Below, piece after piece: positions 13,370-20,429 of a stretch of 22,587 nt of DNA (positions are counted from its first letter, which is position 1; each line of letters starts with the position of its first letter). The notes beneath the pieces were generated by a model that was given only the letters and a program-made list of their open reading frames with translations, did no database searches and was not told the origin of the DNA. Origin of the DNA: a virus; the IMG/VR virus record IMGVR_UViG_3300042375_000943, positions 1-22,587 of that record; one strand, 5' to 3'. Position numbers and translations under genes: made by a program.

Positions 13370-14911
13370 TCATGAGCGTGGTTTTTTCCGGCCCCGGATG
13401 TCATCATGAATCAGCGTCGTCACACTCCAATGCCCGGGCCTTGAACGTTTGACCACCGCCGTCCATCCAGCATGCCGGACGTAACGTTTGTCCGCCTCTT
13501 CATGTTTGCCAGTCTTGCCATGGGCCAGCACCACAGGCAGACGCCTGATGGCAGTCATGCCACGTTTTGAATGGATGTGATGAATGCCCCATCCGCCCGC
13601 ATGCGTGGCCCCTTGATCATTCTCCGCCTTGGCACCGCGTGCACCCCACAGAAAATCAATGCCACCCAGTCCCTTCACATGCATGGCTTCCGGCTTGTCT
13701 TCATGGTTGAGCATGACCTTTTTCAAGGCATCCGCTCCCAGTCTTGCCTGTTTCTTGCGGCGTCGGGTCTCCCATCCCTTGAGCGCACCTGCACGGTTGC
13801 CCATGTTGATCCTGCTCACATCAGCAAGCAGCAGCAGGCAGTCCAGGCCATCGCACAGGCTGGCCGCATTCATGCGCTGCTTGCGCGGCGGCGGCGGTGC
13901 ATTGCCAAAGACACTCTTCAGCGTGAGCCTGCCGTCTTTGGCCTCGGCATTGTCCATCGTCTTCTTCAGCCGCGCCAGCGTGGCCGCGCTCAGGCCGTTG
14001 GTGCTCACCGTCGCAGGCGGCAGCGGCAGCGTCATATCACGCGCCAGCTTGGCCATGGTCTTAGCCAAGGCAGGATCTGCCTTCTGCTTGGAGAGCGCCG
14101 TTGCAAAGGCCAGCGCGATGGTGTTGGGCTTCCTCTTCTGCAAGTCCGCATCTTCGCTGAACTTTTGCAGGCTGAGGCCGAACGCTTCCGCCTCGGCACG
14201 GTCCTTCACTTCCCAGCCCATGCCGCTGTTGAAACGGAAAGGCGGATGACTCACATCCAGCGCATCAGGAAACAGCGCGCTGCTGCCCACTGCCGCCCAG
14301 ATGGGCGAGATCTTCAGCGCGATCATGCGCCCCTGTTTGAAGGCTTCTTTGGAGACGCCTTCCCAGTTGATGTTGTCCGCAGCGATCTCCCAATCACGCA
14401 GCCATTCACGCGGTACACGGCGCGACTCGATGCGGATGAGTTCATACGCGGGGAACAGATCCAATGCGGCGAAGCTCAAGCCCTGCTGTTCCTGCCCCTT
14501 GCCAGCCAGCAGTTTGAGCTGCGTGTCGAGGATGAGGTTGATGCGCTTGTCACTGCTGAGATCTTGCAGTGAGCCTGCACGCGCCGGTGGGATGCCAAGC
14601 TCCTCATCACCGGGAAACCCTGTCACCGGATCGTATTGCAACCGCAGGAGGATGTCTTTCAACTCCAGCCTCAGCTTGGCCTGGTCTCCATCATAGCCAT
14701 TGGCAACGAAACGCTCGATGCGCTGCTTGAGTTCATCGAGGTACACCGCATTCGTCGTGCGTGCACTGAACACGGCGCGCTCCTTGATCGCCTTGGTCAA
14801 TTCGCGGATCTCCGCCGTCCCCATCCAGGTGGGATAGATCCCGCGCTCACGCGCCAGCTTGAACGCCGCGCTGATCGTGCTGCCGTAGGGGTTGGTTATG
14901 AGCAGGGCCAT
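13370..14911 (-). CDS. Minor head protein (Mu gpF-type) with C-terminal PBECR-like nuclease domain
   Basis: A 513-residue protein from ATG 14911. The first ~340 residues match the head-morphogenesis proteins of Mu-like phages: LILDTQLKLLAG, then FPAYELIRIESRRVPREW, RMIALKISPIW and FRFNSGMGWEV. Such proteins sit at the portal vertex and often enter the host with the DNA. The C-terminal part (from about residue 410) has HVKGLGGIDFLWG, GIHHIHSKRG (442-451) and WSVTT (495-499). This is the layout of phage-Barnase-EndoU-ColicinE5/D-RelE-like (PBECR) RNases fused to SPP1 gp7-type proteins. A GALKGWETRRRKK basic motif links the two. A longer start (GTG 14950) is possible, but the 25-codon ORF ending at 14917 makes ATG 14911 more likely. 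Confidence 0.85.
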   Translation of the reverse strand: MALLITNPYGSTISAAFKLARERGIYPTWMGTAEIRELTKAIKERAVFSARTTNAVYLDELKQRIERFVANGYDGDQAKLRLELKDILLRLQYDPVTGFPGDEELGIPPARAGSLQDLSSDKRINLILDTQLKLLAGKGQEQQGLSFAALDLFPAYELIRIESRRVPREWLRDWEIAADNINWEGVSKEAFKQGRMIALKISPIWAAVGSSALFPDALDVSHPPFRFNSGMGWEVKDRAEAEAFGLSLQKFSEDADLQKRKPNTIALAFATALSKQKADPALAKTMAKLARDMTLPLPPATVSTNGLSAATLARLKKTMDNAEAKDGRLTLKSVFGNAPPPPRKQRMNAASLCDGLDCLLLLADVSRINMGNRAGALKGWETRRRKKQARLGADALKKVMLNHEDKPEAMHVKGLGGIDFLWGARGAKAENDQGATHAGGWGIHHIHSKRGMTAIRRLPVVLAHGKTGKHEEADKRYVRHAGWTAVVKRSRPGHWSVTTLIHDDIRGRKKPRS

Positions 14912-14916
14912 GATGT

Positions 14917-14994
14917 CTAGCGGTGAATGATTGAATGCGCGCCCTCCCACTCGGCGCGTTCGATGTCGCCAAACTCAGGAGGTGGCCGGGGCAT
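14917..14994 (-). CDS. 25-residue ORF between connector and minor head genes
   Basis: ATG at 14994 overlaps the stop of the connector gene as TGATG, and the TAG at 14917-14919 lies 5 nt before the minor head start at 14911. The peptide starts MPRPPPEFGDIERAEWEGA and looks like a natural acidic sequence. Exact end-to-end packing between two coupled genes is what a real translated small gene would show. The alternative is that it is only a coupling device that carries ribosomes to the next start. No homologue is recognised. Confidence 0.5.
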   Translation of the reverse strand: MPRPPPEFGDIERAEWEGAHSIIHR

Positions 14995-15535: not shown

Positions 15536-16564
15536 TTAGCTGATGGTGAAACTGCGGATCGCCAGATTGCTGGTCAGACGCAGATCTTCATAATGCTCCA
15601 CGGCGATGATCCACTGCTTGACGCCATGTGGGATGCTGTGGACGGCATACTGCGTGCCCTGGTCGGTCGGGGTCCAGAAGTCCTTCACGTTGGAAGGATC
15701 TTCCTCATCCGCGTTTTGCAGCGCGGTGAACATCAGCACCAGCTGGCCGAGGACTTGAGCCTTGGCGGTCTTGGTGGAGGCATAGCGGGAATTGCTGTGC
15801 CTCACCATTTCCACGCCAAGCAGTCCAGCCAGCATCTCCGGCGTCATCCCCGCAGAGGAGAAGCCACCCGCAGAGTTTTGGGCGCGGTGAGCAATGGCGC
15901 GCTTGCTCCAGGCGGTGTCACCATAACCGACCCGCAGAGGCTTCTGCCCCAGAAGGTCAGCGGCTGTCACCAGCTCGCTGATCACATCCATGTCAGGATC
16001 TTTGCCATCGCTGGTGTCCCACGTCTTGCCGGTGTTCACATCGGCGGCGGTGTAAAGCGCGATCGCACGGCGCAGCTTGTTCATCATCAGGCGGCGCTTG
16101 AGCTTGGCCACGCGCTTCTTCTCCCAGTCGATTTCTTCTTTCACATCATCGAGGTCAACGACGATCTGAAGCCCACGGTTGGACGTTTTGCCAAGCGTCT
16201 TGGTGGTGTTGTATTTGACGCTCTTGAAGTCGGCACCGCTGGCGCGCAGATCTTCATCCGCGTCAGAGAGGAAGGACTCCCAGTTGATGTTTTCAGCATA
16301 CTCGAAACGCCGCGTCACACGCACGGCGGGCGCGAAGAAGTCGAGCTCGTCTTGCAGCCCGCCATCGTCTCTCCAGCCGGTGGCGTAGGTGGTGAGCGGT
16401 TCGGAGAAGCTGCCCTGGACGATGCTGGAGGCATTGAGGCGGGTGATCTCCTCTTTCTTCCCGGAGAACTCCGGGTCGGTGTTGAGCGCCATGATGGCGG
16501 CGACAGCGGTTGTCATGGCCTCGAAGCGCTTCTGCGCATTCAGGCGTGTGGTGCGTTTGATCAT
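15536..16564 (-). CDS. Major capsid protein
   Basis: A 342-residue major head protein, placed after protease/scaffold and decoration genes and before the DUF1320 connector, as in Mu (gpT). The sequence has HK97-fold flavour: an N-arm with DELDFFAPAVRVTRRFEYAENINWESF, a long helix around VKEEIDWEKKRVAKLKRRLMMNKLRRAIALYTAA, and a late Trp/His-rich P-domain (QWIIAVEHYEDLRL). Two RLNA motifs lie in the first 45 residues (7-10 and 42-45), outside what looks like the structured core, suggesting an N-terminal pro-region removed on maturation. No Shine-Dalgarno sequence is seen before the ATG. Confidence 0.88.
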   Translation of the reverse strand: MIKRTTRLNAQKRFEAMTTAVAAIMALNTDPEFSGKKEEITRLNASSIVQGSFSEPLTTYATGWRDDGGLQDELDFFAPAVRVTRRFEYAENINWESFLSDADEDLRASGADFKSVKYNTTKTLGKTSNRGLQIVVDLDDVKEEIDWEKKRVAKLKRRLMMNKLRRAIALYTAADVNTGKTWDTSDGKDPDMDVISELVTAADLLGQKPLRVGYGDTAWSKRAIAHRAQNSAGGFSSAGMTPEMLAGLLGVEMVRHSNSRYASTKTAKAQVLGQLVLMFTALQNADEEDPSNVKDFWTPTDQGTQYAVHSIPHGVKQWIIAVEHYEDLRLTSNLAIRSFTIS

Positions 16565-16622
16565 AAAAGGTATGAGTTAAATTGAATGACTGCGTTGATC
16601 GTTGAATGGATGAGAAACGAGT

Positions 16623-17210
16623 TTATGCGCCGAGGACGATGACCACGGCACCGTTGACCATTGCGGCCTGGGTGGTGGCGAGGTTGGCGGCATTGGCCAC
16701 GACTTTGGTCAGCACTGGCAGGCAGGGCTCCACTTCCATTTCGAGGCCCGCAGAGCCTGCGGTGCGTGACTTGCCCACCTTCCAGAAGGTGCCAGCCGTT
16801 GCGGGTGTCGTGGTGATGGTGCCATCCCCGTAGGAATACACATCCACGTCCGCATTGATGCTGCCTTGCGCCACCATAAGCACCGTTTTCTTGACAGTGC
16901 CCAGCAGCTGGACGGCAATGGGATCTTCAACGGCAGCGGCTTCATCGGTGGAAACCCCGAGAGGTTCATCGGATGCAGCCGCACAGACCGCCGCGTGTTT
17001 GGCATCGCTGCCACGTTTCACCAGCAGGAACTTGGTGGCGATGGCGGCATCAGCCCGGAGGCTGAGCGTGTGATGCGTCCCGTCCCCAAGTGCATTGAAG
17101 CGCACGCGGCGGCGGGTATCTTGACTGAAGGCCATCTTCCACATGGGGATGATGACCGCGAGGAGAAAGGCTGCGAGAATGAGGCAGCCCATAACGAGTT
17201 CGATTTTCAT
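16623..17210 (-). CDS. DUF2190-like capsid decoration protein with N-terminal membrane segment
   Basis: A 195-residue protein between the coiled-coil gene and major capsid gene. Residues 27-195 look like a capsid decoration/stabilising protein of the DUF2190 kind: KFLLVKRGSDAKHAAVC, EPLGVSTDEAAAVED, VQLLGTVKKTVLMVAQ, then DVDVYSYGDGTIT. The first 26 residues are unusual: MKIELVMG followed by about 15 hydrophobic residues (LILAAFLLAVIIP) form a transmembrane helix or uncleaved signal anchor. A shorter start at the internal ATG (MAFSQDTRRR, residue 27) would give a normal soluble decoration protein. Neither start has a well-spaced Shine-Dalgarno sequence (GGAAG directly abuts the internal one), so the true start is open. 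Confidence 0.78.
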   Translation of the reverse strand: MKIELVMGCLILAAFLLAVIIPMWKMAFSQDTRRRVRFNALGDGTHHTLSLRADAAIATKFLLVKRGSDAKHAAVCAAASDEPLGVSTDEAAAVEDPIAVQLLGTVKKTVLMVAQGSINADVDVYSYGDGTITTTPATAGTFWKVGKSRTAGSAGLEMEVEPCLPVLTKVVANAANLATTQAAMVNGAVVIVLGA

Positions 17211-17277
17211 TGGTTATGTCTTACTTGGTTTCGGTTTGTTGTGAGCTGCCTCAAAGCGCATGCCGTGAGGCAAAGGG

Positions 17278-17583
17278 TTACTTGGACTTGGCTTGGTCCT
17301 TGAGTTTTTGATCGTGGTCTTTTTGTGCAGCGTGGGCTTGCTCAGCCTGCTTGCGAGAGATGCCGCCAGCCATTCGGCGCCGGATTTCTTTTTCGTCCGC
17401 ATTGTCCGGGACGGGCGGCTTCTCCTTGCCGCTGGCCGCGAGTGCCTTTTCAAGTTCGGCGACCTTGATCGTGAGCGCCTCGTTGTCGGCTCCGAATTTT
17501 GCGTTGTCGGCTTCGAGGGTGCCGATTCTCTTGAGAGCTTCTTCAAGCTCCTGCTCCAGCTGTTCTTTCGTTTTAGCGGCCAT
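17278..17583 (-). CDS. Small coiled-coil protein in the head module
   Basis: A 101-residue, highly charged helical protein. Residues 3-52 form a clear heptad pattern (EQLEQELEEALKRIGTLEAD and onward), and the C-terminal half is Lys/Gln/Asp-rich with a second helix. No catalytic or membrane feature is seen. It follows the protease/scaffold gene and precedes the decoration protein gene, so an assembly (scaffold helper) role is plausible but unproven. The leader just upstream (17584-17637) is C/A-rich on the minus strand and lacks a Shine-Dalgarno site. Confidence 0.75.
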   Translation of the reverse strand: MAAKTKEQLEQELEEALKRIGTLEADNAKFGADNEALTIKVAELEKALAASGKEKPPVPDNADEKEIRRRMAGGISRKQAEQAHAAQKDHDQKLKDQAKSK

Positions 17584-17637
17584 GATGGTGTGTGGTGGCG
17601 GGTGGTGGTGGGTGTGCGTTGAACGCGGTTAAAAAAA

Positions 17638-18291
17638 TCATGCGGCAGGCGCAGCGGCCTTCATCGCCTCAAACAGCGGCTTGAGTTCCGGGGCGGCTTC
17701 AGCAGCCTTGTAGGCCTCGTCATAGCCGACGCCTTTTTTGACCATGTAGTCATCCGTCCAGGCGTTGATGCGCGTCATGCGGTCGCGTGCATCCATGATC
17801 GCAGGCTTCTGCCCGCCGATCTTGAGCCCTTCCGTGTTCAGCCTGGACGGCACCGCATTGAGTTCCTTGAGCGTCTTGTCCGTGTCGGCATTGAGTCGGG
17901 CACGCACACTCTCGGCTCCATCGGCATCGGCTTCAGCCTTGGTCAGACGTCCGGTTTCAACGAGGCGGCTCAGCTCGGCATTGATGCGGGCCGTGCGGGC
18001 AGCATCACGTTCGGCAGTCAGAGTGGTGATGCTCTCATTGAGGGTCGTCACCTCAGCTGCGCCTGCATTGATGCGTGTGAGCGTGGCTTCAATACCAGCG
18101 TCAACATCTGTGACGTCAGCATTCAGCGCGGTTTTGATTCTCTCCTGCCTGGCCTTCTCTTGCGCGGCCCAAATTCGGTTCTGCCCCATCTGCGAGATCA
18201 AGTTGCCGATGTGAGTTTGGATAAGGTCGTCGCTATCGTCATCTTTGCCGAGTCCGGCGTCGACGAGCGCCTTTTTGATTTTCGTGATCAT
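17638..18291 (-). CDS. Possible internally started scaffold protein
   Basis: A candidate 217-residue product from the in-frame ATG at 18291 within the protease gene, starting MITKIKKALVDAGLG directly after a PE-rich linker. In Mu (I/Z) and lambda (C/Nu3), the scaffold is made from such a nested start. The product would be helical, charged and free of the protease domain. No strong Shine-Dalgarno sequence precedes the ATG, so this rests on domain layout and family precedent. Confidence 0.4.
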   Translation of the reverse strand: MITKIKKALVDAGLGKDDDSDDLIQTHIGNLISQMGQNRIWAAQEKARQERIKTALNADVTDVDAGIEATLTRINAGAAEVTTLNESITTLTAERDAARTARINAELSRLVETGRLTKAEADADGAESVRARLNADTDKTLKELNAVPSRLNTEGLKIGGQKPAIMDARDRMTRINAWTDDYMVKKGVGYDEAYKAAEAAPELKPLFEAMKAAAPAA

Positions 18292-18900
18292 GGTGTTTTC
18301 AGGTTCGGGTGTGGGTTCAGGTTCTGGATTGTCTTCAGGCAGGGCATTGATGGCGCTCTTCACGCCTTTGATATTCGGGCGGCTGGTCATCCCCACGCTC
18401 CACAGCATCACGGGGCGCTCCTTGCCGGGTTCCTGCTCGTCGGTGTCCCAGGCCACGGATGGGAAGCCGTGCTTTTTGAGCTGCTCGCCCGCGTCGTCAT
18501 TCCAGCGGATGCGACCATTCAAGCCGTCATCATCCGCACTGACTTCCACCACATCCCCCAATTCGATGCGCTTGGGCCAGATGTCGGGAGCGAAGTCGGG
18601 ATGCCCGACATAGACCTTGCATGAATTGAGACGTGCCAGTCGTGCGATGCGGCGATGCAGGGCATTGAAGCGCTTCACCAGCGCATCACCATCCGCCTTC
18701 GTGAAGATCTGCACAGCCTCAGGCGTGCCGTCATCCTTGCGCTCGCTCGTGGGCCACTCGCCATACGGGGCCAGCTGAATCCAGTCCGGCAGCTCCGCGT
18801 TGATCTGCGTGCGCAGGCCGCTGGCAAAGATGCGGTGCAGCTCCGCGTTGAGACGCACGACGGCCAGCTTGCCAAAGAATGAATGTAGGGGAGTTTTCAT
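17638..18900 (-). CDS. Phage maturation protease with C-terminal scaffold region (Mu gpI-like)
   Basis: A 420-residue protein from ATG 18900, whose start overlaps the portal stop as ATGA. The N-terminal ~180 residues match the Mu gpI-type prohead protease: YVGHPDFAPDIWP (candidate His100), FPSVAWD (candidate Ser148) and LWSVGMTSRPNI (around Ser168). A Pro/Glu linker (188-202) follows, then a charged, helical region (204-420) that reads as a scaffold. An internal ATG at codon 204 (position 18291) could start a separate scaffold, as Mu gpZ starts inside gpI. The protein is packed with (L/I/F)NA tripeptides, about ten copies, which may be processing sites. A frame extension to 18960 upstream is not needed. 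Confidence 0.85.
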   Translation of the reverse strand: MKTPLHSFFGKLAVVRLNAELHRIFASGLRTQINAELPDWIQLAPYGEWPTSERKDDGTPEAVQIFTKADGDALVKRFNALHRRIARLARLNSCKVYVGHPDFAPDIWPKRIELGDVVEVSADDDGLNGRIRWNDDAGEQLKKHGFPSVAWDTDEQEPGKERPVMLWSVGMTSRPNIKGVKSAINALPEDNPEPEPTPEPENTMITKIKKALVDAGLGKDDDSDDLIQTHIGNLISQMGQNRIWAAQEKARQERIKTALNADVTDVDAGIEATLTRINAGAAEVTTLNESITTLTAERDAARTARINAELSRLVETGRLTKAEADADGAESVRARLNADTDKTLKELNAVPSRLNTEGLKIGGQKPAIMDARDRMTRINAWTDDYMVKKGVGYDEAYKAAEAAPELKPLFEAMKAAAPAA

Positions 18901-20429
18901 GATTCGTTTGCGTTGTGGGCCCAGCCATTGACCAGCGCGGAGGCCAGCAGGTTTTCCCACGCGTCCTGTTGCGCGCTGTCATGACCGATCTTGTCCGGCA
19001 GCTGCGCCACGAAGTCAGCCAGGGCATTGAGCCGCGTGGCATCCGGTGCGTTGAGCACCGCCTTCATCTCTGCGACGAGTTCGGCGCGATCTTCGCGGCC
19101 TGCCTTGGCCAGCAATCGTGCAGCCCCGGCCAGAAACTTTTCCTCTTCAGCATCAGCATTGAGTCTTGCGGCATCCGCCTCTGCGGCGGGATCGGCCGGC
19201 ACTGCGGCTGCACGTGCCGCTGTGAGCAGGGCATCGCCCTCCTTGGGTTGTGCCATGCCAAAGCGTTCCAGCGTTTCATTGACGGCAATCGGCGCACCCA
19301 GGGGAACCAGCGCCTGGATGACCTGCAGAAGCAGTTTCAAATCCTCGCTCTGTGGCACGATGAGGCGGATGTAGGCCTTGGGCGTGGCGGCGGCGGCCGC
19401 ACCAAAGTGGAACTCCAAAACGATGCGCTCGATCTCGTTGAGCTTCTCAGAAATCGTGAGCGCATCATCCTGCTCAATCAAATCAGTCTCGCCACCTTGG
19501 AGGGATGCGCCGGTGTTGTCCTTGGCGCTCATCGTGCTCAGATCCGCACCACGCCACAGCGCCGCAAAGCGTTTGTCCACGCGGTCAATGATCAACGGCA
19601 TTGGCAGAGATCCAGAGCCGCCCTCGGCACGGATGAGCTGGATGGGATCTTTGACCTGTCCATCATCACCATACAGCACAGCGGCCCAGTCTTGGCCGAA
19701 GGCTTCCACGGCCTCCGCCATGGCGATGCCGCCTTCTGAATCCTTGCCATGCTTCGTGCGGCCCAGCAGCCCGGGCATGCCGAACTTGTCAGAGAAGGCC
19801 AGAAAGTCAGCCAGCGCATTGCGCTTGCAGAAGTAGCCGATGGAACCCGCCACCATGAGGCCGTCTCCCACCGTGGTCATCCACTCCGTTTCTGCCAGCG
19901 TCTGGCCCTCCATTTCAAAACCGGTCGGGCAGAAGCGCAGCAGGCCGGTGCGGTTCTCAAAGAATTGCAGCGGCACGTACTCAAAGGTGCAGTCGAGCCG
20001 ATCCCGTGAGGGCTTCCAGATGAGGTGATGATTCGCGTACTGAAAACTGACGCTCTCCATCATCTGTCGCACCAGCAGCGCGAAGCCGCCCTTTTGATTG
20101 AGATCAAAGGCATTCACGGCGCGGACATTGTTCCAGAACTCCGTGAGCACCTGCTGCTGGGCCTTGGCGGCGCGGGAGCCATCCACCGTCAACACCTGCC
20201 ACTCGCGTCGCGAGACACTCTTTTCCCGCTTGGGCTTCACAATGGAGATCATGTCATCCCGCCGCGCCATCGGCTGCCACATCGTGGCCGCCTGCCGCAG
20301 ATCCCCCCGGTCAAAGCCGTCCAGGGCACAAGCCAGCGTCTCGCCGCTCAAGCCGCGAAACATGGCCGTGCGGATCTCCCGCACATAGCGGAGCATCGCA
20401 GCAGAGAAGATGGAGGTGCCGGGTTTCAA
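18897..20429 (-). CDS. Portal protein (DUF935 / Mu gp29-like)
   Basis: A 510-residue portal, the dodecameric ring through which DNA is packaged. The DUF935 signature runs through the centre: FWNNVRAVNAFDL, SVSFQYANHHLIWKPS, VPLQFFENRTGLLRF, DGLMVAGSIGYFCKRNALADFLAFSDKFGMPGLLG and a late helical region with DALTISEKLNEIE. The C-terminal ~90 residues (with AARLNADAEEEK and ATRLNALADF) are a flexible helical tail. A stop codon immediately precedes the TTG at 20429; the start is either this TTG or ATG 20396. Copy 1 of the 45-nt dispersed repeat ends 12 nt before the TTG. The gene is coupled to the protease by ATGA. Confidence 0.9.
   Translation of the reverse strand: MKPGTSIFSAAMLRYVREIRTAMFRGLSGETLACALDGFDRGDLRQAATMWQPMARRDDMISIVKPKREKSVSRREWQVLTVDGSRAAKAQQQVLTEFWNNVRAVNAFDLNQKGGFALLVRQMMESVSFQYANHHLIWKPSRDRLDCTFEYVPLQFFENRTGLLRFCPTGFEMEGQTLAETEWMTTVGDGLMVAGSIGYFCKRNALADFLAFSDKFGMPGLLGRTKHGKDSEGGIAMAEAVEAFGQDWAAVLYGDDGQVKDPIQLIRAEGGSGSLPMPLIIDRVDKRFAALWRGADLSTMSAKDNTGASLQGGETDLIEQDDALTISEKLNEIERIVLEFHFGAAAAATPKAYIRLIVPQSEDLKLLLQVIQALVPLGAPIAVNETLERFGMAQPKEGDALLTAARAAAVPADPAAEADAARLNADAEEEKFLAGAARLLAKAGREDRAELVAEMKAVLNAPDATRLNALADFVAQLPDKIGHDSAQQDAWENLLASALVNGWAHNANES

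Follow-up and report, generated by a model that had tools for sequence, protein, structure and literature searches.

The phage T4 head protease gp21 cuts after L/I-x-E; the T4 scaffold is cut many times, and a propeptide of 65 residues is removed from gp23 (PMC9026906). The giant-phage protease SPN3US gp245 has A-x-E before its scissile bond, with Ser as the preferred P1' residue (PMC10052503), whereas sites of herpesvirus proteases include YLQA-T and VQA-S for the pseudorabies virus (PRV) enzyme (PMC4498786) and the standard human cytomegalovirus (HCMV) substrate RGVVNASSRLA (PMC3853728). Here we compare with these systems the head genes of virus record IMGVR_UViG_3300042375_000943, the whole 22.6 kb of which (22,587 nucleotides) is referred to below as the window, and which carries, on the minus strand, the head and tail module of a Mu-like prophage adjoining a host oligopeptidase-like gene. 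A short motif, [L/I/F]-N-A, recurs in three of its head proteins, namely the fused protease/scaffold, the portal tail and the capsid N-terminal arm; with high probability, it is what the phage's own Mu I-type protease recognizes and cuts during head maturation.

The head genes of the window encode a Mu-type portal protein of 510 amino acids (18897..20429, minus strand as for all features below; PF06074, E 4e-42), a Mu I-type protease (17638..18900; PF10123), a decoration-like protein, a phrog_1005 capsid protein and a Mu gp36 adaptor (PF07030). The protease gene lies between those of the portal and the capsid, and its match to PF10123 (E 9.7e-11; 42.2 bits versus a curated cut-off of 25.2) covers residues 125-366 of the submitted frame. 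Numbered from the ATG at window position 18900, the product consists of a protease (about residues 36-186) and a scaffold (187-420), the C-terminal half being helical in the structural model, as in a fused scaffold.

In this protein, LNA and INA occur 9 times versus 0.36 expected, a count reached in none of 5000 shuffles (Poisson probability 2e-10), or 10 times once FNA is included; R[LI]NA occurs 5 times versus 0.026 expected, and INA is the most frequent tripeptide of the protein without any motif having been chosen beforehand. Six copies are predicted sites in the scaffold, judged by the motif count: ALNA 258-261 (18118..18129), RINA 276-279 (18064..18075), RINA 305-308 (17977..17988), RLNA 335-338 (17887..17898), ELNA 346-349 (17854..17865) and RINA 377-380 (17761..17772). 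The portal protein contains 3 copies versus 0.37 expected (p 0.005), all inside residues 422-469, namely RLNA 422-425 (19155..19166), VLNA 458-461 (19047..19058) and RLNA 466-469 (19023..19034), and the capsid protein contains 2 versus 0.19 expected (p 0.015), both within 45 residues of the N-terminus. Elsewhere in the window, no significant excess of LNA/INA was detected (terminase 1, tape measure 2, fibre 2, host prlC 0), which bears on the caution in the original prediction that background copies in the fibre, terminase and tape measure should be discounted. The positions listed in that prediction for the protease/scaffold, the portal tail and the capsid N-terminus are all correct, and its expectation of a density above that given by composition was borne out. 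Three copies can be added to its list: RFNA at residues 77-80 of the protease, RFNA at 37-40 of the decoration-like protein and RMNA in an F-like minor head protein.

In the capsid, RLNA at residues 42-45 (16430..16441) is the predicted maturation site, RLNA↓SS (the arrow marks the bond). The capsid precursor (15536..16564; 342 amino acids, HK97 fold; phrog_1005 major head protein, E 3e-7) gave an AlphaFold model with a predicted local distance difference test score of 88.5, the best match of which in the PDB, 3bjq (Z 23), covers model residues 46-342; furthermore, residue 1 of encapsulins, HK97-fold shells that have no propeptide, aligns to model residue 45. For comparison, we assembled a set of relatives, drawn from virus contigs plus a small number of genomes, in which the head genes were annotated by means of purpose-built profiles; this yielded about 100 phages, mostly of the Verrucomicrobia-type Mu-like group (the named genomes with related loci all belong to Verrucomicrobia: Pedosphaera, Akkermansia, Opitutaceae and Methylacidiphilales). 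All 109 alignable distinct capsids have an Asn aligned to N44, as do 62 of 62 in set A5, so that the conservation that the original prediction called for at residues 42-45 is found at the Asn; the two capsids outside the 109 come from a truncated contig and a frame lacking the arm. The neighbours of the Asn vary between phages (RLNA, LANE, FANE, AANE, LAND): the preceding residues are mostly [LAFV][A], the next residue is E, A or D (61/62), and the one after that is S, A, G or T in 90%. At least 22 residues precede the conserved site in all 109 alignable capsids, which suggests a propeptide. In the window, this predicted propeptide comprises residues 1-45, leaving a predicted mature protein of residues 46-342 (33.0 kDa), and contains a second predicted site, RLNA 7-10 (16535..16546).

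The spelling of the capsid site differs among phages in a manner that follows the other head proteins. In two relatives, L002 and L003, the head proteins of which are 24-46% identical to those of the window, LANE or IANE replaces RLNA in the scaffold, the portal tail and the capsid together, and the capsid Asn still aligns to N44 of the window. More generally, the capsid site of a phage matches the motif that is repeated in the scaffold, in the protease flanks and in the portal tail of that same phage; its capsid body and portal head show no such match. The Arg that the original prediction placed before the motif holds for the small clade of the window (L004 and the window) and was rejected as part of the general code, which reads [L/F/A/V]-[A/L]-N-[E/A/D]. 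To quantify the covariation, we built for each of 98 phages a matrix from every scaffold Asn (offsets −2, −1 and +1), without picking sites, and used it to score all capsid sites. The own scaffold matrix gave its own capsid site a mean score of +0.62 versus −0.78 ± 0.12 for permuted scaffolds (z 11.6) and was favoured in 38 of 49 close pairs; offset +1, the residue following the Asn, by itself tracks the scaffold (z 5.5). Because relatedness can mimic covariation, we repeated the test on phage pairs joined by paths through the tree that have no branch in common: 20 favoured the own scaffold, 5 did not and 5 were tied (p 0.004; Wilcoxon 0.001). When Asn sites were taken instead from the capsid body or from residues 1-380 of the portal, this pair test gave 11 versus 12 in each case, a null result. 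Across the phages, own-code sites are enriched in the capsid arms even with the main site left out (z 6.3), which covers the predicted site at residues 7-10 of the window capsid, as well as in the protease domain (z 11.5) and the portal tails (z 8.8), and are not enriched in the capsid body, the portal head (residues 1-380, z 0.8), the adaptor or the tail genes. Similarly, the capsid tripeptide occurs 231 times in the phages' own protease/scaffolds versus 22 expected, compared with 12 versus 17 in the capsid body and portal head combined. On the tree, the capsid tetrapeptide changed 46 times.

The enzyme that would read these sites belongs, by its model, to a familiar group. The catalytic domain, ordered at about residues 40-172, has in this model the fold of herpesvirus assemblin and T4 gp21 (peptidase clan SH): structural comparison with VIA matched it to the varicella-zoster virus (VZV) protease (Z 9.3 over 111 residues), T4 gp21 (Z 8.8 over 127) and the PRV protease (Z 8.3), and the first 28 rows were all herpesvirus proteases or T4 gp21. 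Foldseek alone gave a weak match (E 0.012), and a sequence profile of the protease searched against the PDB found no relevant match, so that the kinship with the herpesvirus and T4 proteases is visible by fold only. The candidate catalytic residues His100 (18601..18603, in YVGHPD) and Ser148 (18457..18459, the candidate nucleophile) are invariant in 58 of 58 proteins; Ser168 (57/58) and Asp102 (56/58) are also conserved. The third catalytic residue of herpesvirus proteases is His.

Two copies of the motif that flank this domain and are nearly invariant are the most telling in the protease. QINA 32-35 (18796..18807; Asn34 in 55/58) stands at the start of the domain, and AINA 183-186 (18343..18354; Asn185 in 56/58), the predicted release site at the border with the scaffold, is followed by a linker that is disordered in the model (187-199) and occupies the position where herpesvirus proteases have their release site. 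A third predicted site, RLNA 16-19 in the N-terminal extension (18844..18855), shares Asn18 and its code with 49 of 54 homologues, and residues 19-34 are again disordered. Given the near-invariance of N18, N34 and N185 and the pattern of order and disorder in the model, the catalytic domain appears bracketed by predicted sites. RFNA 77-80 (18661..18672), at the end of a helix inside the domain, has an Asn in 33 of 58 proteins but in another context, FN[SA]; it may be structural and is probably not a site. In an exploratory comparison, residues 145 and 147, beside Ser148, differ between Glu-type and Ala-type phages, residue 145 being basic in 40 of 46 Glu-type phages; in a mutual-information scan of the protease columns, phylogeny inflates all columns (median z 2.9), and we therefore make no claim that these residues set P1. 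An internal ATG, at which a separate scaffold might start as in the case of Mu gpZ, follows the protease domain closely in 93 of 99 phages, with a Shine-Dalgarno-like site at 25 of these 93 versus 59 of 638 other internal ATGs and none in the window.

Where the chain would be cut is best judged from the known proteases. LANE↓S and RLNA↓SS share the shape of their sites, with Asn at P2, so that our best guess is a cut after the residue that follows the Asn; the scissile bond most likely has Asn at P2 and, in the window, Ala at P1. An alternative that we regard as unlikely is that the same code is cut directly after the Asn, which would then be P1, with the mature capsid beginning at Ala45. The Asn is indeed the sole invariant position of the site, but the next residue is restricted (E, A or D) and tracks the scaffold, and the small residue that comes second (S, A, G or T) is also the one found at AxE↓S and NA↓S sites. 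Moreover, we know of no protease of the herpesvirus/T4 head-protease group that cuts after Asn.

The window can be compared with each of the described systems. T4 gp21, gp22 and gp23 resemble it in protease fold, in the many scaffold cuts and in the loss of a capsid propeptide (the latter two predicted for the window), but differ in that the window has Ala at P1 and a fixed Asn at P2, combines protease and scaffold in one polypeptide and shows no close sequence kinship. The T4 analogy drawn in the original prediction does not extend to L/I-x-E itself: the window sites end in Ala, nearer to HCMV VVNA↓SS, and the many relatives that have Glu at this position have Ala at P3. The AxE↓ sites of the giant phages SPN3US (gp245) and phiKZ, with Ser preferred at P1' (PMC10052503, PMC5694885), fit the LANE↓S and AANE↓S of most window relatives, and their many propeptide sites, self-cleavage and use of portal and capsid as substrates are matched by the predictions for the window group. 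However, giant-phage sites have a free P2 and always Glu at P1, whereas the window group has Asn at P2 and Ala, Glu or Asp at P1, and the giant-phage protease lacks a fused scaffold of the window's type. The herpesvirus assemblins (HCMV, herpes simplex virus UL26, PRV pUL26) share the fold (VIA Z 8-9), the scaffold fusion and a release site at the border; their sites have Ala at P1 and Ser or Thr at P1', and HCMV VVNA↓SS nearly equals the window capsid RLNA↓SS (PMC3853728). These enzymes make few scaffold cuts, whereas the window scaffold is predicted to be cut many times and the capsid to lose a propeptide. To our knowledge, herpesvirus proteases do not cut the major capsid protein.

Phage Mu itself offers a comparison closer to the window. 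Mu gpI shares with the window protein the PF10123 family and the protease-scaffold fusion, and the portal family and the position in the head module (gpI, gpZ, portal gpH, capsid gpT) are the same. In gpI (L167:1557-2642, plus strand), LSA occurs 6 times versus 0.24 expected; one copy sits in the protease domain beside the candidate catalytic Ser (residue 128), and thus five lie in the scaffold half. The Mu portal (L168:1755-3293) contains exactly one LSA, at residues 429-431 of 512, 81 residues before the end, and among the other Mu head proteins checked LSA was found only in F, at 191. A Vibrio relative has seven LSA, and a Mannheimia relative has eight ALS together with LSA in the portal tail. 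This reading of LSA perhaps allows cut sites to be predicted for Mu too, including the portal tail, where gpH would lose 81 residues (9.0 kDa) after Ala431. For gpH, processing with gpI from about 64 kDa down to 54 kDa has been reported, which would fit. The literature searched contained no cleavage sites for Mu gpI or a Mu-like head protease and no account of gpH or gpI processing. The scaffolds of the Casadabanvirus phages MP29 and JBD30 (L172, L173) and of Bise (L175) repeat IAAL(T) and AAL(K) in place of LSA and point to additional spellings among the Mu-like phages in culture. Mu differs from the window in that its motif lacks Asn and its capsid protein belongs to another family without a propeptide.

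Two explanations that involve no cutting have to be set against a maturation code. One is that scaffold composition, helix periodicity or DNA-level repetition generates a motif that has no function, as might be suspected from scaffolds rich in Ala, Leu and Glu and from the scattered LNA in the fibre, tape measure and terminase. The shuffles never reach the observed count, the spelling changes together with the capsid site, and the codons differ between copies (CTC, CTG or ATC, then AAC or AAT, then GCx), which rules out a DNA-level repeat or codon artefact and marks the motif as one of the protein; by these shuffles, codons and covariation tests, this explanation is refuted, and we leave it next to no probability. 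The other, which we consider improbable, is that the motif binds rather than being cut, serving as a docking peptide for a partner shared by the scaffold, portal tail and capsid arm and driving their co-assembly. All the motif-bearing proteins must indeed co-assemble, and a shared reader that does not cut would produce covariation as well. Nevertheless, the copies lie at domain borders, namely both ends of the catalytic domain, the border between capsid arm and shell, and the start of the portal tail; a docking motif need not end an otherwise unconserved propeptide; and the protease has the fold and the invariant His and Ser of enzymes with sites of like shape, x-N-A↓S or A-x-E↓S.

Some observations speak against a maturation code itself, in addition to the rival placement of the bond. 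Five of the 25 untied disjoint pairs run in the opposite direction, L007 and L010 fit poorly in the pair test, many capsids with Asp after the Asn go with ANE- or ANA-rich scaffolds, and pairs restricted to supported branches point in the same direction as the full set but are too few for significance. All the evidence comes from sequences and models; a tblastn search of the window and L003 capsids against isolate phages gave no match, all relatives being uncultured prophages or contigs. As a trait of the whole family, capsid processing is contradicted by the Mu record, which annotates the capsid start as confirmed by amino-acid sequencing, with no N-terminal processing. Residues 2-14 of the capsid protein have been described in the JBD30 virion (PMC11445458), and together these two cases indicate that a capsid propeptide characterizes the window group rather than Mu-like phages as a whole. 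The maturation-protease code of the original prediction is supported by a density above composition and by the conservation of capsid Asn44; we infer the cutting itself, the exact bond and the order of events, whereas enrichment, positions, conservation, covariation and fold were computed.

Under the model that we favour, cleavage by the phage's own protease, the enzyme would be made fused to the scaffold and assemble inside the procapsid. It would free its own catalytic domain by cuts after residues 19, 35 and 186, cut up the helical scaffold into fragments about 11-75 residues long, trim the portal tail after residue 425 (a predicted change from 55.7 to 46.6 kDa) and remove the 45-residue capsid propeptide, so that the mature N-terminus would read SSIVQGSF. 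P1 would be Ala in the window and Glu or Asp in many relatives, and P1' usually Ser or Ala. The spelling of the code would differ from lineage to lineage, but within a lineage the scaffold, the protease flanks, the portal tail and the capsid would stay in step, since a single enzyme has to recognize them all.

The remaining head proteins provide additional candidate sites. In the decoration-like protein (16623-17210), RFNA 37-40 (17091..17102) follows a hydrophobic N-terminal segment and is a possible site; the homologues show a moderate own-code enrichment within their first 60 residues (z 3.7), but many of them carry Ile after the Asn (LANIAEG), so that this signal may be plain homology. The N-terminus of the decoration-like protein is strongly hydrophobic and transmembrane-like in 61 of 99 phages, directly before a conserved (L/F)AN-type stretch; such a start is unusual for a capsid decoration protein and is perhaps tied to membrane-associated head assembly. 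A small coiled-coil-like protein (17278-17583) is encoded between the protease and decoration genes and has homologues in 27 loci only.

In the F-like minor head protein (13370-14950), RMNA in a proline-rich linker (13865..13876) is a possible site, with RLNA in L004, L007 and L010; the family-wide own-code signal is weak (z 1.5). All four members of the RLNA-type clade (the window, L004, L007 and L010) have RMNA or RLNA in or beside this linker (PPPPRKQRMNAASL, PPPSRLRRLNAASL, PPPPSSSRLNAL and EDPRLNAEHVP), and a variable C-terminal domain comes after the motif. The L003 homologue has a PBECR2-type nuclease domain (E 2e-7) at its C-terminus, and the C-terminal domain of the window protein weakly resembles PBECR1 (E 0.11, below the cut-off). 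Effector domains packaged as part of such F-like proteins may be released by the head protease.

Taken together, these results outline a broader scenario to which we assign even chances. Under this scenario, Mu I-type head proteases would have repeatedly switched specificity, the sites in the scaffold, protease flanks, portal tail and capsid being rewritten together, so that a herpesvirus-like code (x-N-A↓S) and a giant-phage-like one (A-N-E↓S) would both fall within one family; the codes would be readable from the scaffold (LSA for Mu), and the protease of the RLNA clade would free the effector domain of the F-like protein. The enzymes and this kind of code were already known, and it is the Asn-centred, re-spelled and co-evolving code in Mu I-type proteases that is new according to the literature searched. 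Because the spellings change together in scaffold and capsid, cut sites become predictable for about 100 phages from their sequences alone. A code that is readable in four proteins and yet has changed many times amounts to a natural experiment on the co-evolution of a protease with its substrates, and the occurrence of both a herpesvirus-like and a giant-phage-like specificity in a single phage family bears on the relationship between the maturation proteases of tailed phages and herpesviruses.

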